From positions 1 through 64,000 of the forward strand of contig JADYYS010000009.1 of the NCBI GenBank assembly GCA_020853525.1: DNA of 64,000 bases. Direction: 5' to 3'. A program made the position numbers and the translations under genes. The notes beneath the pieces are model-generated. The model was not told the origin of the DNA and searched no databases. It saw only the letters and a program-made list of their open reading frames with translations. This stretch comes from Ardenticatenales bacterium. GTDB lineage: Bacteria > Chloroflexota > Anaerolineae > Epilineales > Epilineaceae. This document shows, piece after piece, positions 38,987 to 53,506 of the stretch. How positions within the stretch are numbered: position 1 is the stretch's first letter; each line of letters opens with the position of its first letter.

Positions 38987-40744
38987 CTATGAGTCATTCC
39001 ACGTGCGTATCGCCTTCAATGCAGGAGTGATGTCCTTTCTCAGCACCTCCCCAATGTCGTCACGCGTGTATTCGGCAGCAAATCGCCGCGACCATTCAAC
39101 TTTGCGATTCTCGTAGTTAATGTCGCGTGCGCCACACCTCTTCAGGGCATCCCTAATGGATTGCCCAAAACGCCCAAATTCATTGACCGTCAGATTGACT
39201 TCGATGCCGCACTGCACCTTAATTGCGGCACTGACGACTCGAGACGACAAGTAGTTCTCGATTTCTCGTCCATGCGTAACCCAAGCGACACTTTCGGTTT
39301 CGGCTGCCTGTCGTTGAATACGCCTCTTTGACTCATTAATTGGAATTCTCCGTGAGTCACGATCACGGTCCATCAGAACCACAGCACGCTGATTAATCCG
39401 CAGTACGTCAATTAGGTTGGTATGCACATCAGACACATCGTCGTAGTTTATGCTATCTCGCGCCAATGAAATATGCGCGAGCATCCTTCCTCCATAGAAC
39501 ATTACTGCATAGTGTATACCTTCTATCAGGTCGGGATCCAATAGCTCGATCCATCTCTGCAGGTACACACGATCAGACGGGCCTTCAACCCAGATCACTG
39601 CATTCGTCTGCAAAAGGTCACTAGGCCTAACCCCAAGATCGTGTACGGCTTGTATCACCGCACTGTCACCCGCCACCGGACTGCATGTTGTGCCACGTAT
39701 CTGCCGCGTCACATGAAAGACTTGGATCGCATCCGTCAATGTGGATGGAAGCTCGAAGTCAGCGTTGATCATAGTGGGAGAGTGCGAACTCACCAGATAC
39801 GTTGAGTCGGTTTGACCTACGAGGAAACTGATCAGCTCCCTCTGTAGTCGCGGATGAAGATGCACTTCGGGCTCTTCCATGCAGAATACGACATGCTCCT
39901 CATGGAGTATTGCCACAAGGAGAATGACGAGCTCATGTGTTCCCGTTCCAAACGATGCTAGTGGCAAGCGCAGTCCGTTAGAGTTGAGCATGATTGTCTG
40001 GGACTTTGTTGTCACACTTAGCTCGGCATCAGGAAGATGAAGGAGTTGCCGCAAGAAGTCTTGAATCTTTATGAACTTTGATCTGAGCTGCTGATCACCG
40101 AACTCCGGCGACGACCATTCACTCAGTTCGGCAATCAAATTTGTGCCATCGAAGCCATATCCAGCATTGTCATCATGACGTATTTGCCGAAATTCCGGAA
40201 GAAGCTCTACGCGCGGCACTTCGCGCGCAAACAGTCGGAACAGATCATCGCCTTGTTTCTTGATGTAATCGACTAGATCTGCCTGCCGCTGAAATTTCAC
40301 TCCATCTTGAGGGCTCCCGCGAAGTGTGTTCACGAAACTAGCAGCACGACCAGGTTCATCTATTTCAGAAACGGAGCATCCGACCACTGAAGGAAACTCT
40401 GATTGATGTCTCCACTGGAAGTCGAAGCGAACCTCGCTACATCCTAACAGATCGCATAAGCCAGCTTCAGATTCATCATTGAACTCAAACCACATCGTGT
40501 ACTCCATTGCCTCGTCGCTCTTGAGCCCCCACACATCCTCTGAAGTGACTCGAAGCTTGGCATTTGCTCGATTCGCTCCCACAAACGGACTAATCGCGGT
40601 GACAAGCCTGAAGGCCCTAATAATGTTGGACTTGCCAGCATTATTCTGACCGATGAGAAGATTGCATCGTCGCCACGGTCGAAGAACAACCCCGTCACCT
40701 CCAATACTCCTGAATCGCCGAACTTCAAGTCCACTAAAACGCAT
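38987..40744 (-). CDS. OLD-family ATPase with TOPRIM nuclease domain
   Basis: This 585-residue protein has an SMC/ABC-type ATPase domain: Walker A 'LLIGQNNAGKSNIIRAF', signature-region 'LASFGTGTHELVILLVAI', and Walker B 'VVFCMEEPEVHLHPRLQREL' with switch His in 'LVSSHSPTMI'. A TOPRIM domain follows, with 'VIWVEGPSDRVYLQRW' (catalytic Glu) and 'AVVLMDRDRDSRR' (DxD). Such OLD nucleases act in phage defence, either alone or as GajA with a GajB helicase. No GajB is adjacent. Base composition is far lower in G+C than the flanking genes, which suggests transfer. It is likely a defence gene; its target is unknown. Confidence 0.88.
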   Translation of the reverse strand: MRFSGLEVRRFRSIGGDGVVLRPWRRCNLLIGQNNAGKSNIIRAFRLVTAISPFVGANRANAKLRVTSEDVWGLKSDEAMEYTMWFEFNDESEAGLCDLLGCSEVRFDFQWRHQSEFPSVVGCSVSEIDEPGRAASFVNTLRGSPQDGVKFQRQADLVDYIKKQGDDLFRLFAREVPRVELLPEFRQIRHDDNAGYGFDGTNLIAELSEWSSPEFGDQQLRSKFIKIQDFLRQLLHLPDAELSVTTKSQTIMLNSNGLRLPLASFGTGTHELVILLVAILHEEHVVFCMEEPEVHLHPRLQRELISFLVGQTDSTYLVSSHSPTMINADFELPSTLTDAIQVFHVTRQIRGTTCSPVAGDSAVIQAVHDLGVRPSDLLQTNAVIWVEGPSDRVYLQRWIELLDPDLIEGIHYAVMFYGGRMLAHISLARDSINYDDVSDVHTNLIDVLRINQRAVVLMDRDRDSRRIPINESKRRIQRQAAETESVAWVTHGREIENYLSSRVVSAAIKVQCGIEVNLTVNEFGRFGQSIRDALKRCGARDINYENRKVEWSRRFAAEYTRDDIGEVLRKDITPALKAIRTWNDS

Positions 40745-41042: not shown

Positions 41043-41846
41043 CTATTTGCGAGATTTCGCGAAGCTAACCAGCTCAGAAAAGTGAACAAGCGTCGTCGAC
41101 GAACTGCGCGCCAGCGCGATAGCGGACTTTGTGAACGTTGCATTCGTTACGACGGCGGCGGCATTGCAATCATAGTACAATCGCGCCGCGATTACCTCTT
41201 GCACTGCTCCGTTCCCTACACTTCCCGTATAGAACTTGCATTGCACGGCTAATCTCTGACTGTCACGTGTGGCAAGGATATCAGCGCCCTGATCTCCACT
41301 TGCAGGTGTTAATGAAGTGCTCCAGCCTGCATCGCGAAGAATGCACGCGCAGAGGATTTCGAAGTGCTCACCGTCTAAGCACGCCCGAAGTTCGGCTTCT
41401 GCATCTAGGATAGCTGGAGTGGCGTCAAGGTAGTCGCCGACTTCTTGCTCGAGAATTGATTGCCAGTGCGTCCCATATTCCATGAGAGCGTGGCGACTAA
41501 AGGGTACAACGAGAACCGAGTTAATGAATCGGACCTTCTCTGCACTCCATTTACGGTCGTCCAATTCGCCGTAGGGGCCAAGATGAGTGAGCCGAGTCTT
41601 CTGCCGTCCAAGTGCCGGTAGATGGGGCGTCACCGCGTCACGGAACAGACGCGTCCGATACGACTTCAGCTCTCGACCAAAATACAGGCTTCCTGCAGCA
41701 AGAAGGAGGCACCCAATTTTGAGTCCTACGGGCAAAGTCAATATTCCCACGCCGCAGGCTACGACGAACCACGTGGAGCAACCGGCACCGCCTGCCCGGT
41801 CCCCCTTCTTAAGCTTTCCAAAAGAATTGGAGCGTCGCTTGCCCAC
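41043..41846 (-). CDS. membrane-anchored Mrr-like restriction endonuclease
   Basis: This 267-residue protein has a basic N-terminus, then two hydrophobic segments (about residues 25-57) that form a hairpin anchor. The C-terminal Mrr_cat/type IV restriction endonuclease domain has 'FEILCACILRDAGWSTSLTP', the catalytic Asp in 'GDQGADILATRD', and the QxK motif 'LAVQCKFY', then 'AARLYYDCNAAAVVTNATF'. Its low G+C matches the OLD gene on the same strand, and a MITE separates the two. Membrane-tethered Mrr-type nucleases are often defence effectors, but no specific system is recognised. Confidence 0.85.
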   Translation of the reverse strand: MGKRRSNSFGKLKKGDRAGGAGCSTWFVVACGVGILTLPVGLKIGCLLLAAGSLYFGRELKSYRTRLFRDAVTPHLPALGRQKTRLTHLGPYGELDDRKWSAEKVRFINSVLVVPFSRHALMEYGTHWQSILEQEVGDYLDATPAILDAEAELRACLDGEHFEILCACILRDAGWSTSLTPASGDQGADILATRDSQRLAVQCKFYTGSVGNGAVQEVIAARLYYDCNAAAVVTNATFTKSAIALARSSSTTLVHFSELVSFAKSRK

Positions 41847-42067
41847 TTGCCCCCGCCTGGCGCATCCGACACGTGTGCTACTGTCCGCAGCCGGACTGGC
41901 TCTGCGGTACTCGAATCAGGTCGGCGTGATTGACGCCTATAAGATGAACGAGACACAGCACGATGATACCATCAAGCGCTGAACCCTAACGGGCTCGGCA
42001 CTTGCCCCCCGCGCCAGACCCCGCTACCGTCCCGCGACCACCGCCCGCCCACCCAGGCCCCGCCCCC
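41847..42067. other. divergent intergenic region before the restriction genes
   Basis: This is a low-GC, then high-GC gap between the divergent Mrr-like and restriction-subunit genes. The composition change near 41975 marks the edge of the low-GC block. No gene, repeat or clear promoter pair is visible, although promoters for both flanking genes must lie here. Confidence 0.5.
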
Positions 42068-45000
42068 ATGCCCGACACCCCCATCGACAACCCCGTCCTC
42101 AACACCCCCTACGCTGAACCGTCCCGCCACTTCCGCTTCAGCGATGACGGCATCACGGACGAAGTCGTGCCGGGTCGCCGCAAGAGCGCGTACTTCGTGC
42201 CGATTGCGCCGCCGCGAAAGCGGGGACGGCAGTTGGTGCTCGACACGCAGTGGACGGCGGATCGGTTGCGGCCGAACGACGACATCAACCGGATCCGGGA
42301 ACGCGTGGCCGTGTGGCGGCAGGGCGGATACGTGGATGTGACGCCTACGACACGGCGGTTGTTGGCGTACTGGACGGACGCGGAGCGCGAGCGGCCGTTG
42401 TTCTTCTGCCAGATCGAGGCGATGGAGACGGTCATCTATATCGCCGAGGTGGCGCGACGGTATGGGGATGCTTGGATCGAGAACGGGCTGCGGGACGCGA
42501 ACGAGACGGCGAATCCGGGCTTGTACCGGCTGGCGATGAAGATGGCCACGGGGACGGGCAAGACGGTGGTCATGGGGATGCTGATCGCCTGGCAGGCGCT
42601 GAACAAGCTGGCGAACGCGCAGGACGCGCGGTTCAGCGATGCGTTCCTCATCGTGGCGCCGGGGATCACGATCCGGGATCGGCTGCGGGTGCTCATGCCG
42701 AACGATCCGGCGAACTACTACCGGCAGCGGGACATCGTGAGTTCGGACGATCTGGCGCGGCTGCAGCAGGCAAAGATCGTCATCACGAACTTCCATGCCT
42801 TTGGGCTGCGCGAGAAGATGACGGTGGCCAGGGCGACGAAGGCGATGCTCGGCGCGGATGCGTCGGGCGCGTTTACGGAGTCGGCGCCCGAGATGGTGCG
42901 GCGGGTGTGCCGCGATCTCGGGAACAAGCGGGGCGTCATCGTGATCAACGACGAGGCGCACCACTGTTATCGGCGGAAGACGGATGCGCCAAGCGAGACG
43001 CTCGACGCGGACGAGCGCGAGGCGGCGGCGCAGCGGGAGAAGGAGGCGCGGGTTTGGATCGGCGGGCTCGAGGCGGTGCAGGCCAAGCTCGGGATCCGGG
43101 CGATCTATGACCTGTCGGCGACGCCGTTCTTCCTGAAGGGCTCTGGGTACGACGAGGGCAAGCTGTTCGGGTGGGTCGTCAGCGACTTCTCATTGATCGA
43201 CGCGATCGAGGCCGGGCTGGTGAAGGTGCCGCGGGTGCCCGTGGCGGACAACGCGCTGCTGGGCGTGCTGCCGACGTATCGCGATCTCTGGGTGCGCATC
43301 CGGGACGATCTGCCGAAGAAGGGGCGCAAGACCGAGGCGCTGGACGGCGAGCCGCGGCTGCCGATCGAGCTGCAGGGGGCGCTCCACAGCCTGTACAGCA
43401 ACTACGTCCGGTACCACGCGGACTGGGAAGCGAACGCCGCGGCGCGCGCGGGCGGGCTGACGCCGCCGGTGTTCATCGTGGTCTGCCAGAACACGAACAT
43501 CTCGAACTTGGTGTATCGGTACGTGGCGGGTTGGGAGAAGTCGCGGAAAGGTGAGGCGGCAGGAGTCGGCGACGACGGCGACAGCGGCAACAGCGGCGAC
43601 GACGCCATCGTCCAGGCCGGCGCGCTGGACCTGTTCCGCAACGACGACGGCCGCGGCGGCTGGCTGCAGCGGCCGAACACGATCCTCATCGACAGTCAGC
43701 AGCTCGAGAGCGGCGCAGCGATGAGCGACGCGTTCAAGCGGATCGCGGCGCCCGAGATCGACGAGTTCAAGGCGGAGTACCGGCAACGGTACCCGGGGCG
43801 GGACATCGACAAGCTGACGGACGAGGATCTGCTGCGGGAGGTGATGAACACTGTCGGCAAGCCGGGCAAGCTAGGTGAGCACGTGAAGTGCGTGATCAGC
43901 GTCTCCATGCTGACCGAGGGCTGGGATGCGAACACGGTGACGCACGTGCTCGGCGTGCGCGCATTCGGGACGCAGCTGCTGTGCGAGCAGGTGGTGGGGC
44001 GGGCGCTGCGGCGGATCAGCTACGCCACGAACGATGACGGGACGTTACCGCCGGAGTACGCCGAGGTGTACGGCGTCCCGTTCAGCTTCATTCCGACGAG
44101 CGGCTCACAGGGCGAGGTGAAGCCGGTGGCCCGCTCGACGCGGGTGCATGCGGTGCCGGAGCGCACGGCGCTGGAGATGACGTTCCCGCGGCTCACCGGC
44201 TATCGCTACGTGATGCCGGCGGAGCGACTCCGCGCGACGTTCGGGCCGGACGCATCGCTGGCGATCTCGACGGCCGACGTGCCGACGCGGGTGCAGATGG
44301 ACCCGATCGTCGGCGCCGGAAGCGAGCATACGCTGGACGATCTGCGCGCGATGCGCGAGCAGTCCGTTGCGTTCCACATCGCCCGACTGCTCCTGACGCG
44401 CTACTTCCAGGACGATGAGGTCGGCGAGCGCCCGTGGCTCTTCCCGCAGCTGCTGGCGATCACGCTGGACTGGATGCGCCAGTGCGTCGTCCTCAAGGAC
44501 AACACGTTCCCGCAGCTGCTGCTCCTGACGGGACTCATGCACGAGGCGGCGAGCCGCATCTACGGCGGGATCGTGGCCGCCGACGCGGGCGAAGGGCGGT
44601 TGTGGCCGAGCCTGCGGGACTACGACCCGATCGGCTCGACGCGCTGGGTGGACTTCGAGTCGACGAAGCCGTACTTCGTGACGAGCGCGAACAAGTGCCA
44701 CATCTCCCACTCCGTTCTCGACAGCGACTGGGAAGCCGCGGTGGAGATGGCGATGGAGGAGATGCCCGAGGTGATCCGCTACGCCAAGAACGACCACCTG
44801 GGGTTCACGATCCCCTACGTCATCGAAGGCCGCGAGCGCGACTACGTCCCCGACTTCCTGGTGGACGTGGACGATGGCCACGGCGCGGACGATCTGCTCC
44901 ACCTGGTCCTCGAGGTGACGGGCGAACGCCGACCCGAGAAGGCGGCCAAGGTCCGTACGGCGCGGGAGCAGTGGGTGCCGGCGGTGAACAACCACGGCGG

Positions 45001-45106
45001 GTTCGGACGGTGGGGGTTTGTGGAGGTGGGGGATCCGTATGAGGCGCAGGGGGTGATTCGGGCTGTCGTCCGTACGCTGGCTGAGCACGATGCGGTCACC
45101 CGATGA
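42068..45106 (+). CDS. type III-like restriction endonuclease subunit (DEAD/DEAH translocase)
   Basis: This 1012-residue SF2 enzyme has Walker A 'MATGTGKTVVMGML' (K165), the DEAH box 'INDEAHHCYRRK' (D295), 'YDLSATPFF' (motif III) and 'SMLTEGWDANTVTHVLGVRA', then 'CEQVVGRALRR' (motif VI). The C-terminal 'VDFESTKPYF' and 'ERDYVPDFLV', then 'LVLEVTGE', look like a PD-(D/E)xK nuclease site. I prefer the ATG at 42068 to an upstream one because the extra residues are low-complexity; no Shine-Dalgarno is clear. It resembles the BPTD_3080-type restriction subunit and pairs with the methyltransferase at 45601. Confidence 0.88.
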   Translation: MPDTPIDNPVLNTPYAEPSRHFRFSDDGITDEVVPGRRKSAYFVPIAPPRKRGRQLVLDTQWTADRLRPNDDINRIRERVAVWRQGGYVDVTPTTRRLLAYWTDAERERPLFFCQIEAMETVIYIAEVARRYGDAWIENGLRDANETANPGLYRLAMKMATGTGKTVVMGMLIAWQALNKLANAQDARFSDAFLIVAPGITIRDRLRVLMPNDPANYYRQRDIVSSDDLARLQQAKIVITNFHAFGLREKMTVARATKAMLGADASGAFTESAPEMVRRVCRDLGNKRGVIVINDEAHHCYRRKTDAPSETLDADEREAAAQREKEARVWIGGLEAVQAKLGIRAIYDLSATPFFLKGSGYDEGKLFGWVVSDFSLIDAIEAGLVKVPRVPVADNALLGVLPTYRDLWVRIRDDLPKKGRKTEALDGEPRLPIELQGALHSLYSNYVRYHADWEANAAARAGGLTPPVFIVVCQNTNISNLVYRYVAGWEKSRKGEAAGVGDDGDSGNSGDDAIVQAGALDLFRNDDGRGGWLQRPNTILIDSQQLESGAAMSDAFKRIAAPEIDEFKAEYRQRYPGRDIDKLTDEDLLREVMNTVGKPGKLGEHVKCVISVSMLTEGWDANTVTHVLGVRAFGTQLLCEQVVGRALRRISYATNDDGTLPPEYAEVYGVPFSFIPTSGSQGEVKPVARSTRVHAVPERTALEMTFPRLTGYRYVMPAERLRATFGPDASLAISTADVPTRVQMDPIVGAGSEHTLDDLRAMREQSVAFHIARLLLTRYFQDDEVGERPWLFPQLLAITLDWMRQCVVLKDNTFPQLLLLTGLMHEAASRIYGGIVAADAGEGRLWPSLRDYDPIGSTRWVDFESTKPYFVTSANKCHISHSVLDSDWEAAVEMAMEEMPEVIRYAKNDHLGFTIPYVIEGRERDYVPDFLVDVDDGHGADDLLHLVLEVTGERRPEKAAKVRTAREQWVPAVNNHGGFGRWGFVEVGDPYEAQGVIRAVVRTLAEHDAVTR

Positions 45107-45381
45107 ACGATCCCTGCCCGTCCCTCGATCACTACACCGTCACAGATCATGCGCGCGACCAATTGGCTCGACGTGGCCTCTCGGAAGCGGACCTGCAACA
45201 GGCACTTGCAGGACACGTGCGGTCGGAACCCGTTCGGACCGGGCGCTGCGTCTACCAGCTGATGTTTACGAACGTCAGCGGCACGGCCGGGTTGCTGCGC
45301 GTGTTCGTCGATGTGGATCGCGAGCCACCGGAGGTCGTGACCGTATACTTCACCAGCAAGCTGACCAAGTACTGGAGGTAA
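45103..45381 (+). CDS. DUF4258 family protein (putative toxin)
   Basis: This is a 92-residue protein. 'YTVTDHARDQLARRGLSEAD' near the N-terminus, with His and Arg, and the closing 'VVTVYFTSKLTKYWR' fit DUF4258, a fold related to small RNase-like toxins. It starts within the restriction-subunit stop codon (ATGA overlap) and is followed 5 bp later by a DUF2283 gene. DUF4258/DUF2283 pairs are thought to act as toxin-antitoxin modules. Placement between the R and M genes is the unusual point. Confidence 0.8.
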   Translation: MNDPCPSLDHYTVTDHARDQLARRGLSEADLQQALAGHVRSEPVRTGRCVYQLMFTNVSGTAGLLRVFVDVDREPPEVVTVYFTSKLTKYWR

Positions 45382-45386
45382 CCCCG

Positions 45387-45584
45387 ATGCGCGTGACCTA
45401 CGACCGCCACACGGACACGCTGTCGATCATTCTGCGTGACACGCCCGTGAGCGAGAGCGATGAGGATAAGCCCGGCGTCATCCTGGACTACGATGCAGAG
45501 GGCAACATTGTGTCGATCGAGATCCTCGATGCGTCCGCCAGCGTCCAGCAGCCGATGACGATGGTCTACGAGTTCGCATCCTGA
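45387..45584 (+). CDS. DUF2283 family protein (putative antitoxin)
   Basis: This 65-residue protein starts MRVTYDRHTDTLSIILRDTP and continues 'KPGVILDYDAEGNIVSIEI', the standard DUF2283 pattern of short beta strands. GGAGGTAA lies 6 nt before the ATG, overlapping the DUF4258 stop. It probably neutralises or regulates its DUF4258 neighbour. The methyltransferase starts 17 bp later. Confidence 0.85.
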   Translation: MRVTYDRHTDTLSIILRDTPVSESDEDKPGVILDYDAEGNIVSIEILDASASVQQPMTMVYEFAS

Positions 45585-45600
45585 CATCGGAGCCCGCGCC

Positions 45601-48243
45601 ATGCCCCCCAAGCCCGCCCCCCGCACCCGCGTCGACGCGATCCAACACCAAGACACCCGCCTCAACATCCCCACCGAGGAACTCCGCGACTTCGTCGCCG
45701 CCGACGAGGCCGCCCCCCAAACGCTCCTCTATCCGCGCGACCCGTCGCTGGACCCGCAGCTGGTGTGGAAGGGCAAGGATGATCAGGACCGCGCCCCGCT
45801 GGCGGTGCCGCTGGTCCCGATCTACATCCAAGAGAAGATCCACCCCCGCGCCCTCATCGAGGACCTCCGCCGCCACCATCCCGCAGCCGGCCGCATCGCC
45901 GAGCCGGACGGCGACTACGTCCAGGCGGACCTCTTCGCTACAGCCTTCGACGAGCCCGACGACCTGGCGCACATGGTCGAGTTCTACCAACACGACCAGC
46001 ACTGGTCCAACCGCCTGATCCTGGGCGACAGCCTCCAGGTGATGGCCAGCCTGGCCGAGAAGGAAGGCCTAAAGGGCAAGGTCCAGACGATATACCTCGA
46101 CCCGCCCTACGGCATCAAGTTCGGCTCCAACTGGCAGGTGAGCACGCGCAAGCGCGACGTGAAGGACGGCAAGGTAGAAGACGCGACGCGGCAGCCGGAG
46201 CAGGTGCGGGCGTTTCGGGATACATGGCAGTTGGGGATACACAGCTATCTGGCGTATTTGCGGGATCGGCTGGTTGTCGCGAGGGAGTTGTTGACTGAGA
46301 CGGGGTCACTCTTCGTCCAGATCGGCGACGAGAACGTTCATGTTGTGCGGTCCATCATGGACGAGGTGTTCGGAAGCGAGCACTTCGTAGCGCTTGTCGC
46401 GTTCAAGAAAACGACGGGCGCCGGGAGCTTCGCTGGTGGCACGAATATCCTTGCTTCGACAGCAGATTACATCGTTTGGTATGCGAAGAACATGGAACAG
46501 GTCAAGTATCGTCCATTGTATCGTCAGAAGGATCTTGATGGCATTGGTGGTGAGCAATATACCATGGTCGAGACCTCCGACGGACAGCGCACGCGAGGCA
46601 TACCGTCATCCGTCGACGATCGACCATTTCGCCCGGACAACCTTACATCACAAACGACTCGCGAGGCCCAGACAACCGTATTTCCAGTTGATCTGAATGG
46701 GCAGACCTATCTTCCCAATACTGGTGGTTGGAAGACAAACCGCGACGGAATGACTCGCCTTGGCCATGCTCGACGACTGATCGCCTTGGGGAAGACACTC
46801 TGCTACGTGCGATTCTTTGACGACTATCCACTATTCCCGTTCACAAACGTCTGGACCGACACGGTGACATCAGGATTCGCCGATCCGAAGATGTACGTTG
46901 TCCAGACGAATGCCAAGGTCATCGAACGCTGCCTCCTCATGACCACCGACCCCGGCGACCTCGTCCTCGACCCCACCTGCGGCTCCGGCACCACCGCCTA
47001 CGTCGCCGAGCAATGGGGCCGCCGCTGGATCACCGTCGACACGTCCCGCGTCGCCCTCGCGCTCGCCCGCACGCGCATCATGTCCGCCCGCTACCCGTAC
47101 TACCTCCTCGCCGACACACCCGAAGGGATCAGCAAGGAGGCCGAGGTGGCCGGCCGGGTGCCGCCGATGCCGATGCCGGCCACCGGCGCCGACGTCCGGC
47201 GCGGGTTCGTGTACCGGCGCGTGCCGCACATCACGCTGAAGTCGATTGCCAACAACCCGGACATCGTCCCGGGGATGACGCGCGAGCAGATCGACGCCGC
47301 CATCGCCCGCCACGCGGACACCGAGACGCTGTACGACAAGCCGTACGAGGACAACAAGCGCGTGCGCGTTTCGGGGCCGTTCACCGTCGAGAGCCTCTCG
47401 CCGCACCGCGTCCTGGACACGGACACGCCGCAGCCGGCGTCGGAGGCGGTGGGCAAGCGGGACGGCGCGGACTTCGGGACGATGATCCTGGACAACCTCC
47501 GCGTCGCCGGCGTCCAGAACACCCGCAAGGGCGAGCGCCTCAAGTTCGATCGCCTCGCCCCCTACGCCGGCCTCTGGCTGCAGGCCGCCGGCGCCTACAC
47601 CGACACGGAAGGCAACGTGCGCCGCGTGGCGGTGTCCATCGGCCCCGAGCACGGCACCGTCGGGCCGCAGCACGTCAAAGAAGCCGCCAAGGAGGCCGTG
47701 AAGGGCGTAGGCTTCGACCTCCTCATCGTCTGCGGCTTCGCCTTCGACCCCCATGTGGGCGAAGAAGCCAAGCGCTTCGGCCAACTGGACGTCCTCCCCG
47801 TCCGCATGAACGCCGACCTCCTCATGGGCGACGCCCTCCTCAAAAAGACCGGCGCCGGCAACCTCTTCATGGTATTCGGCGAACCCGACATCGACATCCG
47901 CCACCTGGATGGCAACATGATCGAGGTTGAACTCCGCGGCCTCGACATCTACGATCCCACCACCGGCGCCCTCCGCACCGCCTCCACCGACGAGATCGCC
48001 TGCTGGTTCATCGACACGGACTACGACGCCGAGAGCTTCTTCGTCCGCCACGCGTACTTCACGGGGGCGGATGAGCCGTACGATAAGTTGAGGCGGGCGT
48101 TGCGGGCGGAGGTGGATGAGGGGGCGTGGGGGGCGTTGTATCGGACGGTGAGTCGGGGGTTCGCGCGGCCGAAGGACGGGCGGAAAGCGGTGAAGGTGAT
48201 CAATCACTATGGGGATGAGGTGTTGAGGGTGTACGATGTGTGA
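45601..48243 (+). CDS. type III-like site-specific DNA methyltransferase
   Basis: This 880-residue beta-class amino-methyltransferase has the catalytic motif 'YLDPPYGIKFGSNW' (D167PPY) ahead of the SAM-binding motif 'LDPTCGSGTTAYVAEQWGR' (from D457). That order defines the beta class. It modifies the site cut by the subunit at 42068. A target-recognition region lies between the motifs, and a long C-terminal region (about 500-880) follows. Bases about 46320-46930 are clearly lower in G+C than the rest of the gene, suggesting that the target-recognition segment was exchanged by recombination. The substrate (adenine or cytosine) cannot be set here. Confidence 0.9.
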   Translation: MPPKPAPRTRVDAIQHQDTRLNIPTEELRDFVAADEAAPQTLLYPRDPSLDPQLVWKGKDDQDRAPLAVPLVPIYIQEKIHPRALIEDLRRHHPAAGRIAEPDGDYVQADLFATAFDEPDDLAHMVEFYQHDQHWSNRLILGDSLQVMASLAEKEGLKGKVQTIYLDPPYGIKFGSNWQVSTRKRDVKDGKVEDATRQPEQVRAFRDTWQLGIHSYLAYLRDRLVVARELLTETGSLFVQIGDENVHVVRSIMDEVFGSEHFVALVAFKKTTGAGSFAGGTNILASTADYIVWYAKNMEQVKYRPLYRQKDLDGIGGEQYTMVETSDGQRTRGIPSSVDDRPFRPDNLTSQTTREAQTTVFPVDLNGQTYLPNTGGWKTNRDGMTRLGHARRLIALGKTLCYVRFFDDYPLFPFTNVWTDTVTSGFADPKMYVVQTNAKVIERCLLMTTDPGDLVLDPTCGSGTTAYVAEQWGRRWITVDTSRVALALARTRIMSARYPYYLLADTPEGISKEAEVAGRVPPMPMPATGADVRRGFVYRRVPHITLKSIANNPDIVPGMTREQIDAAIARHADTETLYDKPYEDNKRVRVSGPFTVESLSPHRVLDTDTPQPASEAVGKRDGADFGTMILDNLRVAGVQNTRKGERLKFDRLAPYAGLWLQAAGAYTDTEGNVRRVAVSIGPEHGTVGPQHVKEAAKEAVKGVGFDLLIVCGFAFDPHVGEEAKRFGQLDVLPVRMNADLLMGDALLKKTGAGNLFMVFGEPDIDIRHLDGNMIEVELRGLDIYDPTTGALRTASTDEIACWFIDTDYDAESFFVRHAYFTGADEPYDKLRRALRAEVDEGAWGALYRTVSRGFARPKDGRKAVKVINHYGDEVLRVYDV

Positions 48244-48296
48244 GGATGGTGGCCGGGCACTTGCGGTCTGCCGATACCACACCGTGGACGGTCCCA

Positions 48297-48590
48297 ATGA
48301 CCCTGGATGAAGTCGTCCGTACGCTGACATCGCACCAGCGCGAGATCACGACCGCGCACGGAGTTGCGTCGCTCGCCATATTCGGTTCGGTCGCACGCGG
48401 TGATGCCCTACCAACAAGCGACGTCGACGTGCTGGTGGAGTGCGCGCGACCGACGGGCTTGCTGGCCTTAGTGGGCCTCAAGCAGCGCCTCGAAGCCACC
48501 CTCGGCTGCGCCGTCGATCTCGCGACTCGCGATGAATTGCACCCGGTGTTGCGGGCGGACATCCTATCCAAGGCAGTGCGTGCCCTCTAG
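48297..48590 (+). CDS. MNT-type minimal nucleotidyltransferase
   Basis: This 97-residue protein has the 'AIFGSVARGDALPTSDVDVLVE' core (GSxxxG...DxD) of MntA-like antitoxins, which AMPylate and silence HEPN toxins. I chose the ATG at 48297 because the family opens with 'TLDEVVRTL...'. No HEPN partner follows or precedes it; a composition change and an unrelated operon come next. It may be an orphan, or act within the restriction cluster just upstream. Confidence 0.85.
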   Translation: MTLDEVVRTLTSHQREITTAHGVASLAIFGSVARGDALPTSDVDVLVECARPTGLLALVGLKQRLEATLGCAVDLATRDELHPVLRADILSKAVRAL

Positions 48591-48728
48591 ATCGTGGCGG
48601 ATGCGGATCCGAAAGGCCATCGAATGGTAGTCCTCGGATGAGGCGTTCGTCGACATGTCACGCTAATCACTTGAGACCGCCACAATAGGTCCAAGTATGG
48701 GCTCATCGGCATTGAACTTAGAAGGGAA

Positions 48729-51179
48729 ATGCACTCAGTGAATCCGTTCAAACGTTATGGAGATCATCGCTGGCGACCGTTCCCCGGAGTCGAGATCAAC
48801 TTTTCGAACGCTCATGACGCAGATATCTCTGAAGATATCTCTGAAGAGTATCTATACTCTAGAATTGCACAGATAGTCTGCGACAATGATCTTGAATCCG
48901 GTGAGATGTCCAGTGACACGTGTCTTGAAGTCACTGATACTATGCGACAATATCTATTTGCGCAATACGACTCGGTTCGCTTTTCCATGGACAGACGGCT
49001 TAACGACGCTGGGGATTGGTGGATCGAAGCATCTACTGACGCTTCAACCTCGCTCCGAGAGCAGCATTCCGTCAATGAGGGACTCTTCGGCTGGATGCTC
49101 TCGGCACGACGCCCCTTGCTTTATGAGTCGAAGCACGAGAATCTGCCAATTAACATTTCATATCTTCCCGGCTATGAACGCACTGAGTCGGTGCTCTTAG
49201 TGGAGGTGAGAATCGATTCACGAATTGTTGGATGTTTGTGTGCTGTAAGTGATGCTCCCGATGCAATTGACTCGCGATTGAGATCGCTCCTAATACGCAC
49301 TTCTCGACTGATCGAAGCACTAGCCGCACCTATTCCAATCTATCTCGGCGTATCCCGCGACGCGCAGGGAGCGGATCAAACATCCCCAACTCCGCGGACG
49401 TTTCAAGACGTGCTGCGTGAACTCACAAGGAGTCTCGCGCCTAGATATGAGTGGTTCAACTATTGGCAATGGAAGCCGCGAAATCAGACGTTGATTCCGC
49501 ATCAATTGGCGCCAAGTCTCGTCTCGCTCGCTGCTCCGCATCTCACTGCTCTCGGTCTCGGTGAGGGATTCGTTGGAAGCGTTGCAGAACGACTGGAGGC
49601 AATTCGTGACAATAAAGTTCTAGATGCCTACGGTGAGGATACTCGTATTGCGACTCCCCTGCCTGACATTGCGCCTGGTATTCAATTGCGCGCGATCCTT
49701 GCGGTACCAGTAATGTCATCAACGCGATTCTACGGCGTACTTGCAATTCTCGGAGACGCCACGTCGTTCTTCAACGATCACGATTTGCACACGGTCCAAG
49801 ATCTCGCGAATATGGCCGGGCCACAGCTTGCAGCTATTGATGAGCGAGATGTGACTGATCTCGAGCGATCTATTAGCGAAGATTTGTTGACTTGCATTGC
49901 GAGACAACTTAGACCAAGCGAATATTGGAGTAACCTCAGTCGGATGTTCGAGCGTATCTGCTCGACGCATGTTGCGCTGAGTATTTCAATCCTAGTTGGG
50001 CGCCGACATGCGCCGCACTTCTATTCACTAAAGGCATCGTCAATGCCACACAATAGCTATGCAGGCATCCAGTTCGACGCAAGGAAGGATCCATTCATTC
50101 GGGCACTCGCGACAAGGCGAACTGATTGGGTGGACTTGGGCACTCTTCCCGCAGATCGCAGCCGTCGTCAATGCGTACATCCAAACGCAAGCAAGGTGGG
50201 CGTAGCGCATTTCCCATCCGCGCCAAGCAGACCACTCAGAATTATCAGATCATCATTGGGTAAGTCTGCATTTCCCGTGCTGATCGCAACTATTGGGTTG
50301 GAAGATTCCACAATGTACAGCAGCTCCTGGCCCGTAGATCTGATTCGTCCAGCGCTGGATCGCATCATTGAAAATGTCTTTGCGATCACGCGAGCAATCC
50401 TGACGGCCGCTGACGTCAAGGAAGCTGCTCAGCTAAGAGCAATGCTCATGACTATTGAAACGCATGATACGAAAGGTCAGCTAAATAAGATAGCCCAGAG
50501 CGCCGAGGGAATTCACCTTCACTCGGACGGTGAAAATCGCGAGCGCGCGCGCGACATAATGAACGCCGTATATGATTTGAGAAATAAGACAGAGAATAGT
50601 CTCTTCGCAAGTTTCTACTCGAGACCGGCCGGGGACATGACTGAGTCACAAGACGTGGAGTTTCTTGATTCGCGAACAGAGCTTGACATTAGAGATCTAC
50701 TCGCGGAGGTGGTTAGGCTACAAAGCGAGAGGGAGCCCAATCAAGTGATCGTCCTCGAACTGCGATGGGGTGAGGCAGTTCATCCTCAAGTCTTCGGACT
50801 TAGACGGTGGCTCGTCGCAGCCGTACGCAATGTCCTTTCGAATGCAGTGAAGTTCGGTAGAGGACTTCCGATAACTGTGGAAGCAAGTTTGAACATGGTG
50901 GAGTCGCACGTGGACCAAGGTGAAGTTACTGTTCGTATAATTGACAGGGGTATTGGAATCCCCGAGTCCGAGCATAAGAAGATTTTCGTGGCGGGGCATC
51001 AGAATGCATACAGCAGGCGCTTCGAGGTAACGGGGTCTCAGATCGCGTTATCTGTATCACGTGAAATCCTCGAATTACATGGCGGTTCGATTTGGGTTCA
51101 GTCATCCTCTCCGGGCAATGGTGCCATCTTTGCAATTAAGCTTCCAGTCGCAATTACGCATTCAAGTGAGGGGAAGTGA
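48729..51179 (+). CDS. soluble GAF-domain histidine kinase
   Basis: This 816-residue kinase has no membrane segment. Three GAF-like regions (about residues 45-195, 220-375 and 385-560) precede the phospho-acceptor region 'MTIETHDTKGQLNKI' (H579 likely). The ATPase domain has N-box 'VAAVRNVLSNAVKFG', G1 'IIDRGIGIPESEHKKIF' and a C-terminal 'LSVSREILELHGGSIWV'. The H-box is divergent but keeps the key His. It is the first gene of a three-gene, low-G+C operon with a lone receiver (1-bp gap) and a RelA/SpoT synthetase. AAGGGA lies only a few bases before the ATG; GTG at 48738 is an alternative start. Confidence 0.8.
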   Translation: MHSVNPFKRYGDHRWRPFPGVEINFSNAHDADISEDISEEYLYSRIAQIVCDNDLESGEMSSDTCLEVTDTMRQYLFAQYDSVRFSMDRRLNDAGDWWIEASTDASTSLREQHSVNEGLFGWMLSARRPLLYESKHENLPINISYLPGYERTESVLLVEVRIDSRIVGCLCAVSDAPDAIDSRLRSLLIRTSRLIEALAAPIPIYLGVSRDAQGADQTSPTPRTFQDVLRELTRSLAPRYEWFNYWQWKPRNQTLIPHQLAPSLVSLAAPHLTALGLGEGFVGSVAERLEAIRDNKVLDAYGEDTRIATPLPDIAPGIQLRAILAVPVMSSTRFYGVLAILGDATSFFNDHDLHTVQDLANMAGPQLAAIDERDVTDLERSISEDLLTCIARQLRPSEYWSNLSRMFERICSTHVALSISILVGRRHAPHFYSLKASSMPHNSYAGIQFDARKDPFIRALATRRTDWVDLGTLPADRSRRQCVHPNASKVGVAHFPSAPSRPLRIIRSSLGKSAFPVLIATIGLEDSTMYSSSWPVDLIRPALDRIIENVFAITRAILTAADVKEAAQLRAMLMTIETHDTKGQLNKIAQSAEGIHLHSDGENRERARDIMNAVYDLRNKTENSLFASFYSRPAGDMTESQDVEFLDSRTELDIRDLLAEVVRLQSEREPNQVIVLELRWGEAVHPQVFGLRRWLVAAVRNVLSNAVKFGRGLPITVEASLNMVESHVDQGEVTVRIIDRGIGIPESEHKKIFVAGHQNAYSRRFEVTGSQIALSVSREILELHGGSIWVQSSSPGNGAIFAIKLPVAITHSSEGK

Positions 51180-51180
51180 G

Positions 51181-51573
51181 ATGCAAGTACTATGGGTGGA
51201 TGATCAGCCCGGCGACAGCCCAGAGTTTATGAGGGTGCTCGTCGAACGGGGCTGGCATGTGACTAATGCCCGAAACGTAGTTGAAGCGATTATGTGTCTC
51301 GATAGTGAGTCCTTTGACCTTCTTATCTTGGACATCCAAATCCCTCTCGGACCAGTGGGCGGCGATCAGAGATTTGAAGATCTCGCCTACAATGGTGTGC
51401 ATGTCTATATCCGAATGTCAGAGAAGTCCTGTGACAAGGTGCCGCAAGTCATTTGTCTCACGAATTTCGAACACGCTGCTCGCCAACACTTGGGATCCGA
51501 GGTCACCGTTCTTAGCAAGGCTATTTTTATTGAGACATTCAGGAAGGAGATTGAAGCACATGAACCAAAATGA
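51181..51573 (+). CDS. stand-alone receiver-domain response regulator
   Basis: This 130-residue protein is a CheY-like receiver with no output domain. It has the acidic pair D7-D8 ('VLWVDDQPGD'), probable phospho-acceptor D51 ('DLLILDIQIPLG'), the Thr in 'ICLTNFEHA' and the Lys in 'VLSKAIFIE'. An insertion after D51 (GPVGGDQRFEDLAYNG) is longer than usual. It starts one base after the kinase stop and overlaps the RelA/SpoT gene by 14 bp. It is likely the phosphorylation partner of the kinase and may relay the signal to the synthetase directly. Confidence 0.85.
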   Translation: MQVLWVDDQPGDSPEFMRVLVERGWHVTNARNVVEAIMCLDSESFDLLILDIQIPLGPVGGDQRFEDLAYNGVHVYIRMSEKSCDKVPQVICLTNFEHAARQHLGSEVTVLSKAIFIETFRKEIEAHEPK

Positions 51574-52468
51574 AGTGGATATCATCGCCGAAAGCCAGCG
51601 CCCGTACTACAACGCAGCTATGGAACAAGTGATGGCAACCATTCGGCACATTTCCGACGAGCGTGCCCGCGTATATGGCCTTTCTCCATGGACACTAAGC
51701 AGTCGATTAAAGGATGCCAATAGCATTGTAGAGAAGATCGGACGAAAGAGGTCGATTAGGGAGGACTATTCGCTCGATAATATTACGGATATTGCGGGCG
51801 TGCGTGTGATTGTTGAAAGTGATCGCACTGCTCGTTCGCTCGAGTCGTTTATTCGCTCGCGCAATGTGTTCTCCGTAAATAGCGAGGCATCCGAATCATT
51901 CCTAGACGCTCCGCGAAGTGATGGCTACAGAGGCATCCATCTCATATTGTTGGTCGATGTGAGGCTCGCGTCCGCGAAGTCGGTGCCTGTGGAGGTGCAG
52001 ATCCGCACGATGTTGCATCATCAGTGGTCAGAATTGTCTCATAGCGAGTTCTATAAGAGCGTCGAAGATATCCCGGGAAGTCTACTCTTGCGCATGCGAT
52101 CCCTAAGCGAGGCATTGCATTTGGCCGAGATTGAGTCGGCGCAATTGCGAAGGAGTCGGATTCTAGATGAGTGTCAATTGCTTATTTGGGACGAGCTCAG
52201 GGAACGCGTTCTTGAAACATTGAGCGCAGCGTCTAGCGATTCGTCAACAACAAGAGCTGTAGGCCAGTTGGGAATTCTACTCCTGAATACAGATCGACAA
52301 CTTCGGCGAATACTTGTGTCTGACGGCGAGGCGCAGCGATTGGCGTTCCGTACATTTATTGAGTTAGCAGATCGGATCAGCGAACTATGTGAAGCGAGCA
52401 ACGATGCAATTGACTACATTGTGCGACGATTGACGATCTATGTCCAGGGAATCCCGGATGATTGGTAG
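51560..52468 (+). CDS. RelA/SpoT-domain (p)ppGpp synthetase-like protein
   Basis: This 302-residue protein has a RelA/SpoT nucleotidyltransferase core: 'DNITDIAGVRVIVESDRTA', 'DAPRSDGYRGIHLILLVD' and 'VEVQIRTMLHHQWSELSHSEFYK'. The key Arg, Tyr-Arg-Gly, the Glu of VEVQIRT and the closing His are present, so synthesis should be possible. No HD hydrolase, TGS or ACT domain is present, as in small alarmone synthetases or toxic SAS enzymes. The C-terminal 120 residues are helical and unrecognised. AAGGAGA precedes the ATG. Its operon with a kinase and receiver suggests signal-controlled alarmone (or tRNA pyrophosphorylation) output. Confidence 0.87.
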   Translation: MNQNEVDIIAESQRPYYNAAMEQVMATIRHISDERARVYGLSPWTLSSRLKDANSIVEKIGRKRSIREDYSLDNITDIAGVRVIVESDRTARSLESFIRSRNVFSVNSEASESFLDAPRSDGYRGIHLILLVDVRLASAKSVPVEVQIRTMLHHQWSELSHSEFYKSVEDIPGSLLLRMRSLSEALHLAEIESAQLRRSRILDECQLLIWDELRERVLETLSAASSDSSTTRAVGQLGILLLNTDRQLRRILVSDGEAQRLAFRTFIELADRISELCEASNDAIDYIVRRLTIYVQGIPDDW

Positions 52469-53027: not shown

Positions 53028-53070
53028 CCGTGGCTGTGGCTGTCCAGCGCGCGGACAGCCACAGCCACGG
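53028..53070 (-). terminator. 18-bp perfect hairpin after the HU-like gene
   Basis: Arms 53028-53045 and 53053-53070 match perfectly around a 7-nt loop. It lies 14 bp beyond the stop of the minus-strand gene at 53084. No T-run follows, as with the other hairpins in this GC-rich genome. Confidence 0.65.
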
Positions 53071-53083
53071 CCACGGCCGATCG

Positions 53084-53506
53084 TTACGCCGCCCGCTCCC
53101 CCCTCCCCGGCATCACCACCGGATCCCCCGGATGCTCCCGATCCCACCGCTCCTTGTACGCCAGGAGCGGTACCCCGATCATCTCCCGGTTCGTGATCTC
53201 CCCGTGGAACGCCTCCACATCCGCCAGCCCCACGCGCAGCACCTTGTCCACGCGGATCTGCGGGAACGGCGTCCCGTCCAAGCGGATGTCGTGGCCGACG
53301 AGGCCGATCCCCGGCAGGCGGATCTTCACGGCGCTGCGGGCTTGAAGGAGAGCCTGCCGGCCGAGCTCGCGCAGGACCATCTGCGCCAGCGGGGCCGTGA
53401 CGAGCGTCCCGACGGCCAGATGCTCCGTCAACTCGTCGAGGTCCATCGTGCGGGAGTGGGCGATCCGAGGGCGGTAGGTCGCGATCGCTTGAATCAGGGT
53501 TGCCAT
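53084..53506 (-). CDS. HU/IHF-fold-like small protein
   Basis: This 140-residue protein has a segment 'DELTEHLAVGTLVTAPLAQM', then 'VLRELGRQALLQARSAVKIR', then 'LPGIGLVGHDIRLDGTPFPQ', that resembles the helical pair plus beta-arm start of HU-like domains. In HU, the phrase 'GrxVxlpGfGxF' sits at the same place. The C-terminal part 'GVPLLAYKERWDREHPGDPV' is unfamiliar. AAGGAGA lies 8 nt before the ATG. If HU-like, it would bind DNA or structured nucleic acid. This is a weak, pattern-based assignment. A fragment of its 5' region is duplicated at about 54812-54836. Confidence 0.5.
   Translation of the reverse strand: MATLIQAIATYRPRIAHSRTMDLDELTEHLAVGTLVTAPLAQMVLRELGRQALLQARSAVKIRLPGIGLVGHDIRLDGTPFPQIRVDKVLRVGLADVEAFHGEITNREMIGVPLLAYKERWDREHPGDPVVMPGRGERAA

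Follow-up and report, generated by a model that had tools for sequence, protein, structure and literature searches.

Control of RelA/SpoT-family synthetases is known to come from ribosomes, from transcription, from allosteric nucleotides, from antitoxin domains and from a few partner proteins. In the Detocs system, a kinase and a receiver reportedly drive a growth-halting enzyme, the effector being a receiver fused to an ATP nucleosidase domain. A single-domain regulator acting on an enzyme is described in Myxococcus xanthus, where phosphorylated EpsW (EpsW~P) was reported to stimulate its enzyme in the EpsW-EpsZ pair by direct interaction (PMC12802240). Here we describe a cassette of three plus-strand genes packed within positions 48729-52468 of a 64,000-nucleotide stretch (hereafter the window) from an Ardenticatenales bacterium of the phylum Chloroflexota (assembly GCA_020853525.1, contig JADYYS010000009.1, positions 1 to 64,000). 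The genes encode a soluble histidine kinase, a single-domain receiver and a small RelA/SpoT-type synthetase, and their coordinates and strand were verified as exact. The cassette is apparently a two-component signalling unit with a small alarmone synthetase as its target. The probability that it is an acquired, self-contained module, in which the receiver would switch the synthetase post-translationally upon a cytosolic signal, is estimated at roughly 45%.

Comparison with the described systems revealed a shared logic and different parts. Like Detocs, with which it was compared at the level of architecture, the cassette is proposed to pass a signal from a kinase through a receiver to an enzyme that halts growth, and not to transcription; unlike Detocs, its receiver is a separate protein and its effector is a RelA/SpoT synthetase. 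No receiver domain was found in this synthetase, and the cassette therefore falls outside Detocs as defined by a histidine kinase, a receiver and a receiver-fused effector. The EpsW-EpsZ pair offers a parallel to the proposed switch, EpsW being a single-domain regulator that reportedly activates its enzyme through direct contact; the enzyme and the physiology are unrelated. No precedent for such direct control in alarmone synthesis was found in the literature searched. The sequence-only reading, an earlier note on this DNA, knew of no characterised system with this architecture, and our literature searches, which covered papers outside subscription-only access, likewise found no system of histidine kinase, receiver and alarmone synthetase. 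If the proposed reading is true, alarmone signalling would gain a new input in the form of a kinase-receiver pair that acts directly on a small synthetase, and two-component sensing would be joined to growth arrest without transcription.

Gene packing and composition of the cassette

The kinase and receiver genes are separated by a 1-bp gap and the receiver and synthetase genes overlap by 14 nt, both values being exactly those claimed in the sequence-only reading. Candidate ribosome-binding sites were identified by eye before the starts of the kinase (AGAAGGG), the receiver (GAGGGG) and the synthetase (AAGGAG); the first lies in the intergenic gap upstream of the kinase ATG (48591-48728, plus strand). 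No promoter in this gap stood out above the expectation from shuffled sequence. The close spacing behind the earlier claim of an operon is thus borne out, and it is from this spacing that we infer co-transcription.

Analysis of base composition found G+C fractions of 0.510, 0.489 and 0.503 for the kinase, receiver and synthetase genes, that is 49-51% against about 70% for the surrounding DNA, as had been noted earlier. The G+C fraction at third codon positions (GC3) is 0.502, 0.527 and 0.541, respectively, against 0.87-0.90 for the non-defence genes of the window. Since both values are far below those of the host-like genes in the window, the cassette genes look foreign and horizontally acquired. 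The deviation is common to the three genes and is not found in the immediate neighbours on either side; as the upstream genes have GC3 values of 0.75-0.91 against 0.50-0.54 in the cassette, the kinase, receiver and synthetase have a common origin that is not that of their upstream neighbours. The overlap, the 1-bp gap and the shared composition argue against a loose adjacency, in which an orphan kinase-receiver pair would control other targets and the synthetase would merely sit on the same transcript. This explanation gains from the lack of conserved co-occurrence in any collection searched, and it is considered improbable.

The synthetase and its likely product

The synthetase gene (51560-52468, plus strand) encodes a protein of 302 amino acids, with a synthetase (SYNTH) core at residues 1 to about 192 followed by a helical C-terminal region of about 105 amino acids. 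RelA_SpoT was the sole Pfam domain detected (75.8 bits, 4e-21); no HD hydrolase, TGS or ACT domain was found, consistent with the earlier claim of a synthetase without a hydrolase. The catalytic residues R49, K51, K59, D77, R82, Y123, E145 and Q147 are all kept. The active site is hence intact, an inactive one having been named in the sequence-only reading as a ground for rejecting it, and by domain content and residues the protein is predicted to be a small alarmone synthetase (SAS).

Comparison with relatives of solved structure revealed YwaC, RelP and RelQ as the top matches (59-61 bits), with RelQ/RelP-type chains at 48-61 bits overall, CapRel at 25 bits and FaRel2 at 20 bits. The AlphaFold model is confident across most of the catalytic core, and a Foldseek search with it placed SAS1 of B. 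subtilis and SAS2/RelP of S. aureus first, ahead of CapRel (E about 1e-10, TM-score by target length about 0.8, identity 22-29%). Like RelQ/SAS1 and RelP/YwaC/SAS2, the cassette protein consists of a SYNTH domain only and has the same fold and catalytic motifs; unlike them, it has some 105 extra C-terminal residues, is encoded with a kinase and a receiver, and diverges to the low identity given above.

The toxSAS proteins CapRel and FaRel2 are the other group for comparison. Residues R79, R116 and Y155 are described for CapRel (PMC9712102) and R64, R95, Y128, E145 and Q147 for FaRel2 (PMC11782079), and R49, R82, Y123, E145 and Q147 of the cassette synthetase match these donor-site residues by motif. 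The mobile, defence-associated setting is also shared with toxSAS. Unlike toxSAS, the cassette shows no recognised adjacent antitoxin family, and the YXXY neutralisation motif of CapRel and ATfaRel2, the only type of neutraliser looked for, is absent from both receiver and synthetase. With similarities of 20-25 bits to toxSAS, the closest relatives of the synthetase lie among the RelQ/RelP-type proteins. Because it is closer to these than to CapRel and FaRel2, (p)ppGpp is favoured as its most likely product, (p)ppApp or pyrophosphorylated tRNA being less likely. The earlier suggestion of toxic tRNA modification is correspondingly weakened, as the synthetase is nearer in sequence and fold to the (p)ppGpp makers than to the tRNA-modifying toxins. 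The genome holds a further RelA_SpoT match that is stronger (1.4e-41) and is presumably the long enzyme usually present; the small synthetase is thus accessory. A tree of SYNTH domains placed the protein near a Dehalococcoidia relative and a protein from a Rhizobium plasmid; its branch is long and the support weak (0.39), which shows its divergence and nothing more.

The RelQ/RelP-like core also fits a stress module unrelated to phage, in which a redox, nucleotide or small-molecule cue at the GAF domains of the kinase would raise (p)ppGpp and slow growth. GAF domains often bind small ligands. Guanosine-specific SAS proteins have been described as stress response factors (PMC11782079). However, the foreign composition and the single occurrence beside restriction genes would be unusual for a core stress pathway, and this explanation is judged unlikely.

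Kinase, receiver and the proposed switch

The kinase gene (48729-51179, plus strand) encodes 816 amino acids, with GAF domains at about 67-194 and at 249-364, an H-box at H579-D580 and a HATPase domain at 692-808. Pfam matches were obtained for HATPase_c (1.8e-20) and for GAF_2 at residues 249-364 (2.9e-12); a second, weaker GAF_2 match at residues 67-194 appeared when that part was scanned alone (7.8e-5). Residues about 370-560 gave no profile match, and their single-sequence AlphaFold model was unusable, with a confidence score (pLDDT) of 37. Two of the three GAF domains claimed earlier therefore have profile support and the third does not. Hydropathy over 19 residues peaks at 1.64, within the second GAF domain; there is no clear transmembrane segment, in agreement with the earlier description of a membrane-free kinase.

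Alignment with other histidine kinases revealed that the phosphoacceptor-type histidine, the N-box and the G1 box are kept. In the same alignment the G2 box reads GSQIAL against GTGLGL in the relatives, and the fourth residue after the H-box histidine is glycine and not threonine; no Pfam profile match was found for HisKA. From what is known of the family, the two changes would predict a reduced or unusual kinase activity and the loss of the common phosphatase motif.

The receiver gene (51181-51573, plus strand) encodes a single-domain CheY-like protein of 130 amino acids with an insertion after beta-3, identified by eye. Its score for Response_reg (PF00072) is 28.4 bits, slightly below the cut-off of 30.2. 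The phosphorylation residues D7/D8, D51, T94 and K113 are all kept and no output domain was found, as expected for the lone receiver described in the sequence-only reading. The protein is divergent: at a threshold of 1e-6, its sole match in 400 Chloroflexota genomes was the window itself.

These features suggest the following switch. The soluble GAF kinase would bind or sense a cytosolic cue and would phosphorylate the lone receiver on its D51, or engage it in another way. The receiver would then bind the co-encoded synthetase directly, probably via the extra C-terminal helices or an oligomer surface, turning pyrophosphate transfer on or off, and the (p)ppGpp made would lead to growth arrest and a stringent-type response. 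Direct control of the enzyme by the receiver is favoured because the receiver lacks an output domain and is encoded by a gene that overlaps that of the synthetase; the intact sites of both proteins are in line with it.

Several observations weigh against this reading. Because the G2 box is degenerate and no HisKA profile matched, kinase activity is uncertain, and phosphotransfer may be weak or absent. The C-terminal region of the synthetase is modelled poorly, with blocks of pLDDT 37-52 past residue 190. The three-gene order, whose lack of conservation the sequence-only reading had named as a ground for rejecting it, had no second example among the 400 Chloroflexota genomes, 298 genomes of the source's class and 37 other loci with a SYNTH domain. 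The claim that the receiver switches the synthetase is accordingly retained for its intact sites, lone receiver and gene overlap, and is weakened by the G2 box and the unconserved gene order.

The degenerate G2 box also makes a switch by binding only possible. Such a kinase could serve a type II-like antitoxin arrangement, in which the unphosphorylated receiver would restrain a toxic synthetase until kinase input or loss of the receiver freed it. The order is antitoxin-first, the receiver gene lying before the synthetase gene with an overlap, and toxSAS come paired with neutralisers (PMC11782079). However, YXXY, the best understood neutralisation motif, is missing from both proteins, and retention of the full set of receiver phosphorylation residues suggests that phosphorylation matters. 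We regard this arrangement as distinctly unlikely.

Rarity of the arrangement and its defence neighbourhood

Searches with the synthetase found matches in three of the 400 Chloroflexota genomes at 1e-8 and in eight of the 298 genomes of the source's class at 1e-6, its own genome included in both counts. No kinase or receiver was present next to the synthetase relatives in the regions fetched from these genomes. Open reading frames (ORFs) of the 37 other SYNTH-containing loci (349 kb), from plasmids, phages, viral contigs and Chloroflexota, were searched with kinase and receiver profiles; none of the 37 matched, and the window cassette was recovered. Among control loci outside the profile building, the kinases of L010 and L057 were recovered and L005, L007, L009, L012 and L013 gave no kinase match, which means that a search of this kind could overlook a divergent kinase. 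Viral and genome contigs scanned with the kinase and the synthetase as single-protein queries gave no match, and a scan of genome contigs with two-sequence alignments, whose patterns were poor and N-terminal, returned only the known Dehalococcoidia relative. A family-wide search with PF04607 was dominated by long RSH proteins. One receiver match on a viral contig (L086) was rejected as chance, because the ORF is short, lacks most of the receiver and runs in the opposite direction to the surrounding phage genes. Since the scans of GTDB contigs used single sequences or poor patterns and whole genomes were sampled in Chloroflexota only, absence elsewhere is evidence of rarity and not of uniqueness. 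The wider proposition, that cytosolic kinase-receiver pairs directly gate, by a true phosphorelay, an alarmone (or tRNA) pyrophosphokinase as an immune or stress module with more examples in unsampled islands, seems to us rather unlikely.

Genes of defence type adjoin the cassette upstream. A restriction-modification locus (42002-48243) comprises a BPTD_3080-family restriction endonuclease (42002-45106, plus strand; 1154 bits, cut-off 800), a DUF4258-like protein (45103-45381, plus strand) and a type III-like methyltransferase (45601-48243, plus strand). It is followed by an MNT-type nucleotidyltransferase gene resembling MntA and PDC-S09 (48240-48590, plus strand; G+C 0.65), which is probably not part of the cassette; all four genes in 42002-48590 run in the same direction. 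GC3 is host-like in the restriction and methyltransferase genes (0.84-0.91), which may thus have arrived separately from the cassette, and is 0.75-0.76 in the DUF4258 and MNT genes. Genes for an OLD/GajA-like ATPase (38987-40744, minus strand) and a protein with an Mrr catalytic domain (41043-41846, minus strand) are low in G+C (0.50-0.55) and in GC3 (0.51-0.56), like the cassette; they are divergent from the restriction-modification locus and are possibly a second acquired defence pair. By gene content the neighbourhood is a defence island, and its composition suggests assembly in several steps. The defence setting claimed earlier holds for the adjoining genes; for the cassette the link is one of neighbourhood alone, the composition differs from that of the adjacent restriction and methyltransferase genes, and a defence role is possible.

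Such a role would take the form of anti-phage abortive infection, with the kinase sensing an infection cue and the receiver releasing a growth-arresting synthetase, following the logic of Detocs with an effector that makes alarmone or modifies tRNA. This is a special case of the module proposed above, with which its likelihood overlaps, and we consider it doubtful, though it has points in its favour. The adjoining genes and the acquired, low-G+C DNA are consistent with it, and toxSAS have been implicated in anti-phage immunity (PMC9712102, PMC11559606). HATPase and receiver (REC) domains are among those that a DefensePredictor figure legend gives for predicted, unvalidated defence systems, no synthetase being named there (PMC13092281). 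Stand-alone SYNTH proteins of 336-378 amino acids also ride small mobile elements as cargo: a Vibrio filamentous phage (L059:6571-7581), a Bacteroides plasmid with phage structural genes (L017:5881-6954) and a 3.5-kb Klebsiella plasmid (L014:436-1572). Against it, the synthetase stands apart from the toxSAS subfamilies, neither protein has the YXXY motif, the composition of the neighbourhood suggests separate origins and the cassette was found in no other island. The best PADLOC match of the synthetase, the candidate PDC-S33 (4.4e-27), covers model positions 40-175 of 349, the SYNTH domain being the sole common part, whereas a single-gene relative on a Rhodanobacter plasmid (L015) matches in full length (315 bits over 6-342).

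Elsewhere in Chloroflexota, ORFs of about 885 amino acids (L078:4988-7657, minus strand; L081:3100-5754, plus strand; and, in part, L080:6087-7730) combine a RelA/SpoT synthetase domain with TPR-like repeats. By eye, they also have a region of Rossmann/SLOG type and, at the C-terminus, a MAEMEHxRWxAERLLDGW stretch that resembles an RyR domain.

No convincing mobile-element ends were found among the repeats around the cassette. A perfect 18-nt inverted repeat (53028-53045 and 53053-53070, with a 7-nt spacer) separates the cassette from the host-like gene that comes next. A minus-strand gene a short way downstream of the cassette (53084-53506) encodes a protein of 140 amino acids that matches no Pfam family. 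Its relatives number nine copies in one genome of the same family and four in another, a lineage-specific multicopy family.

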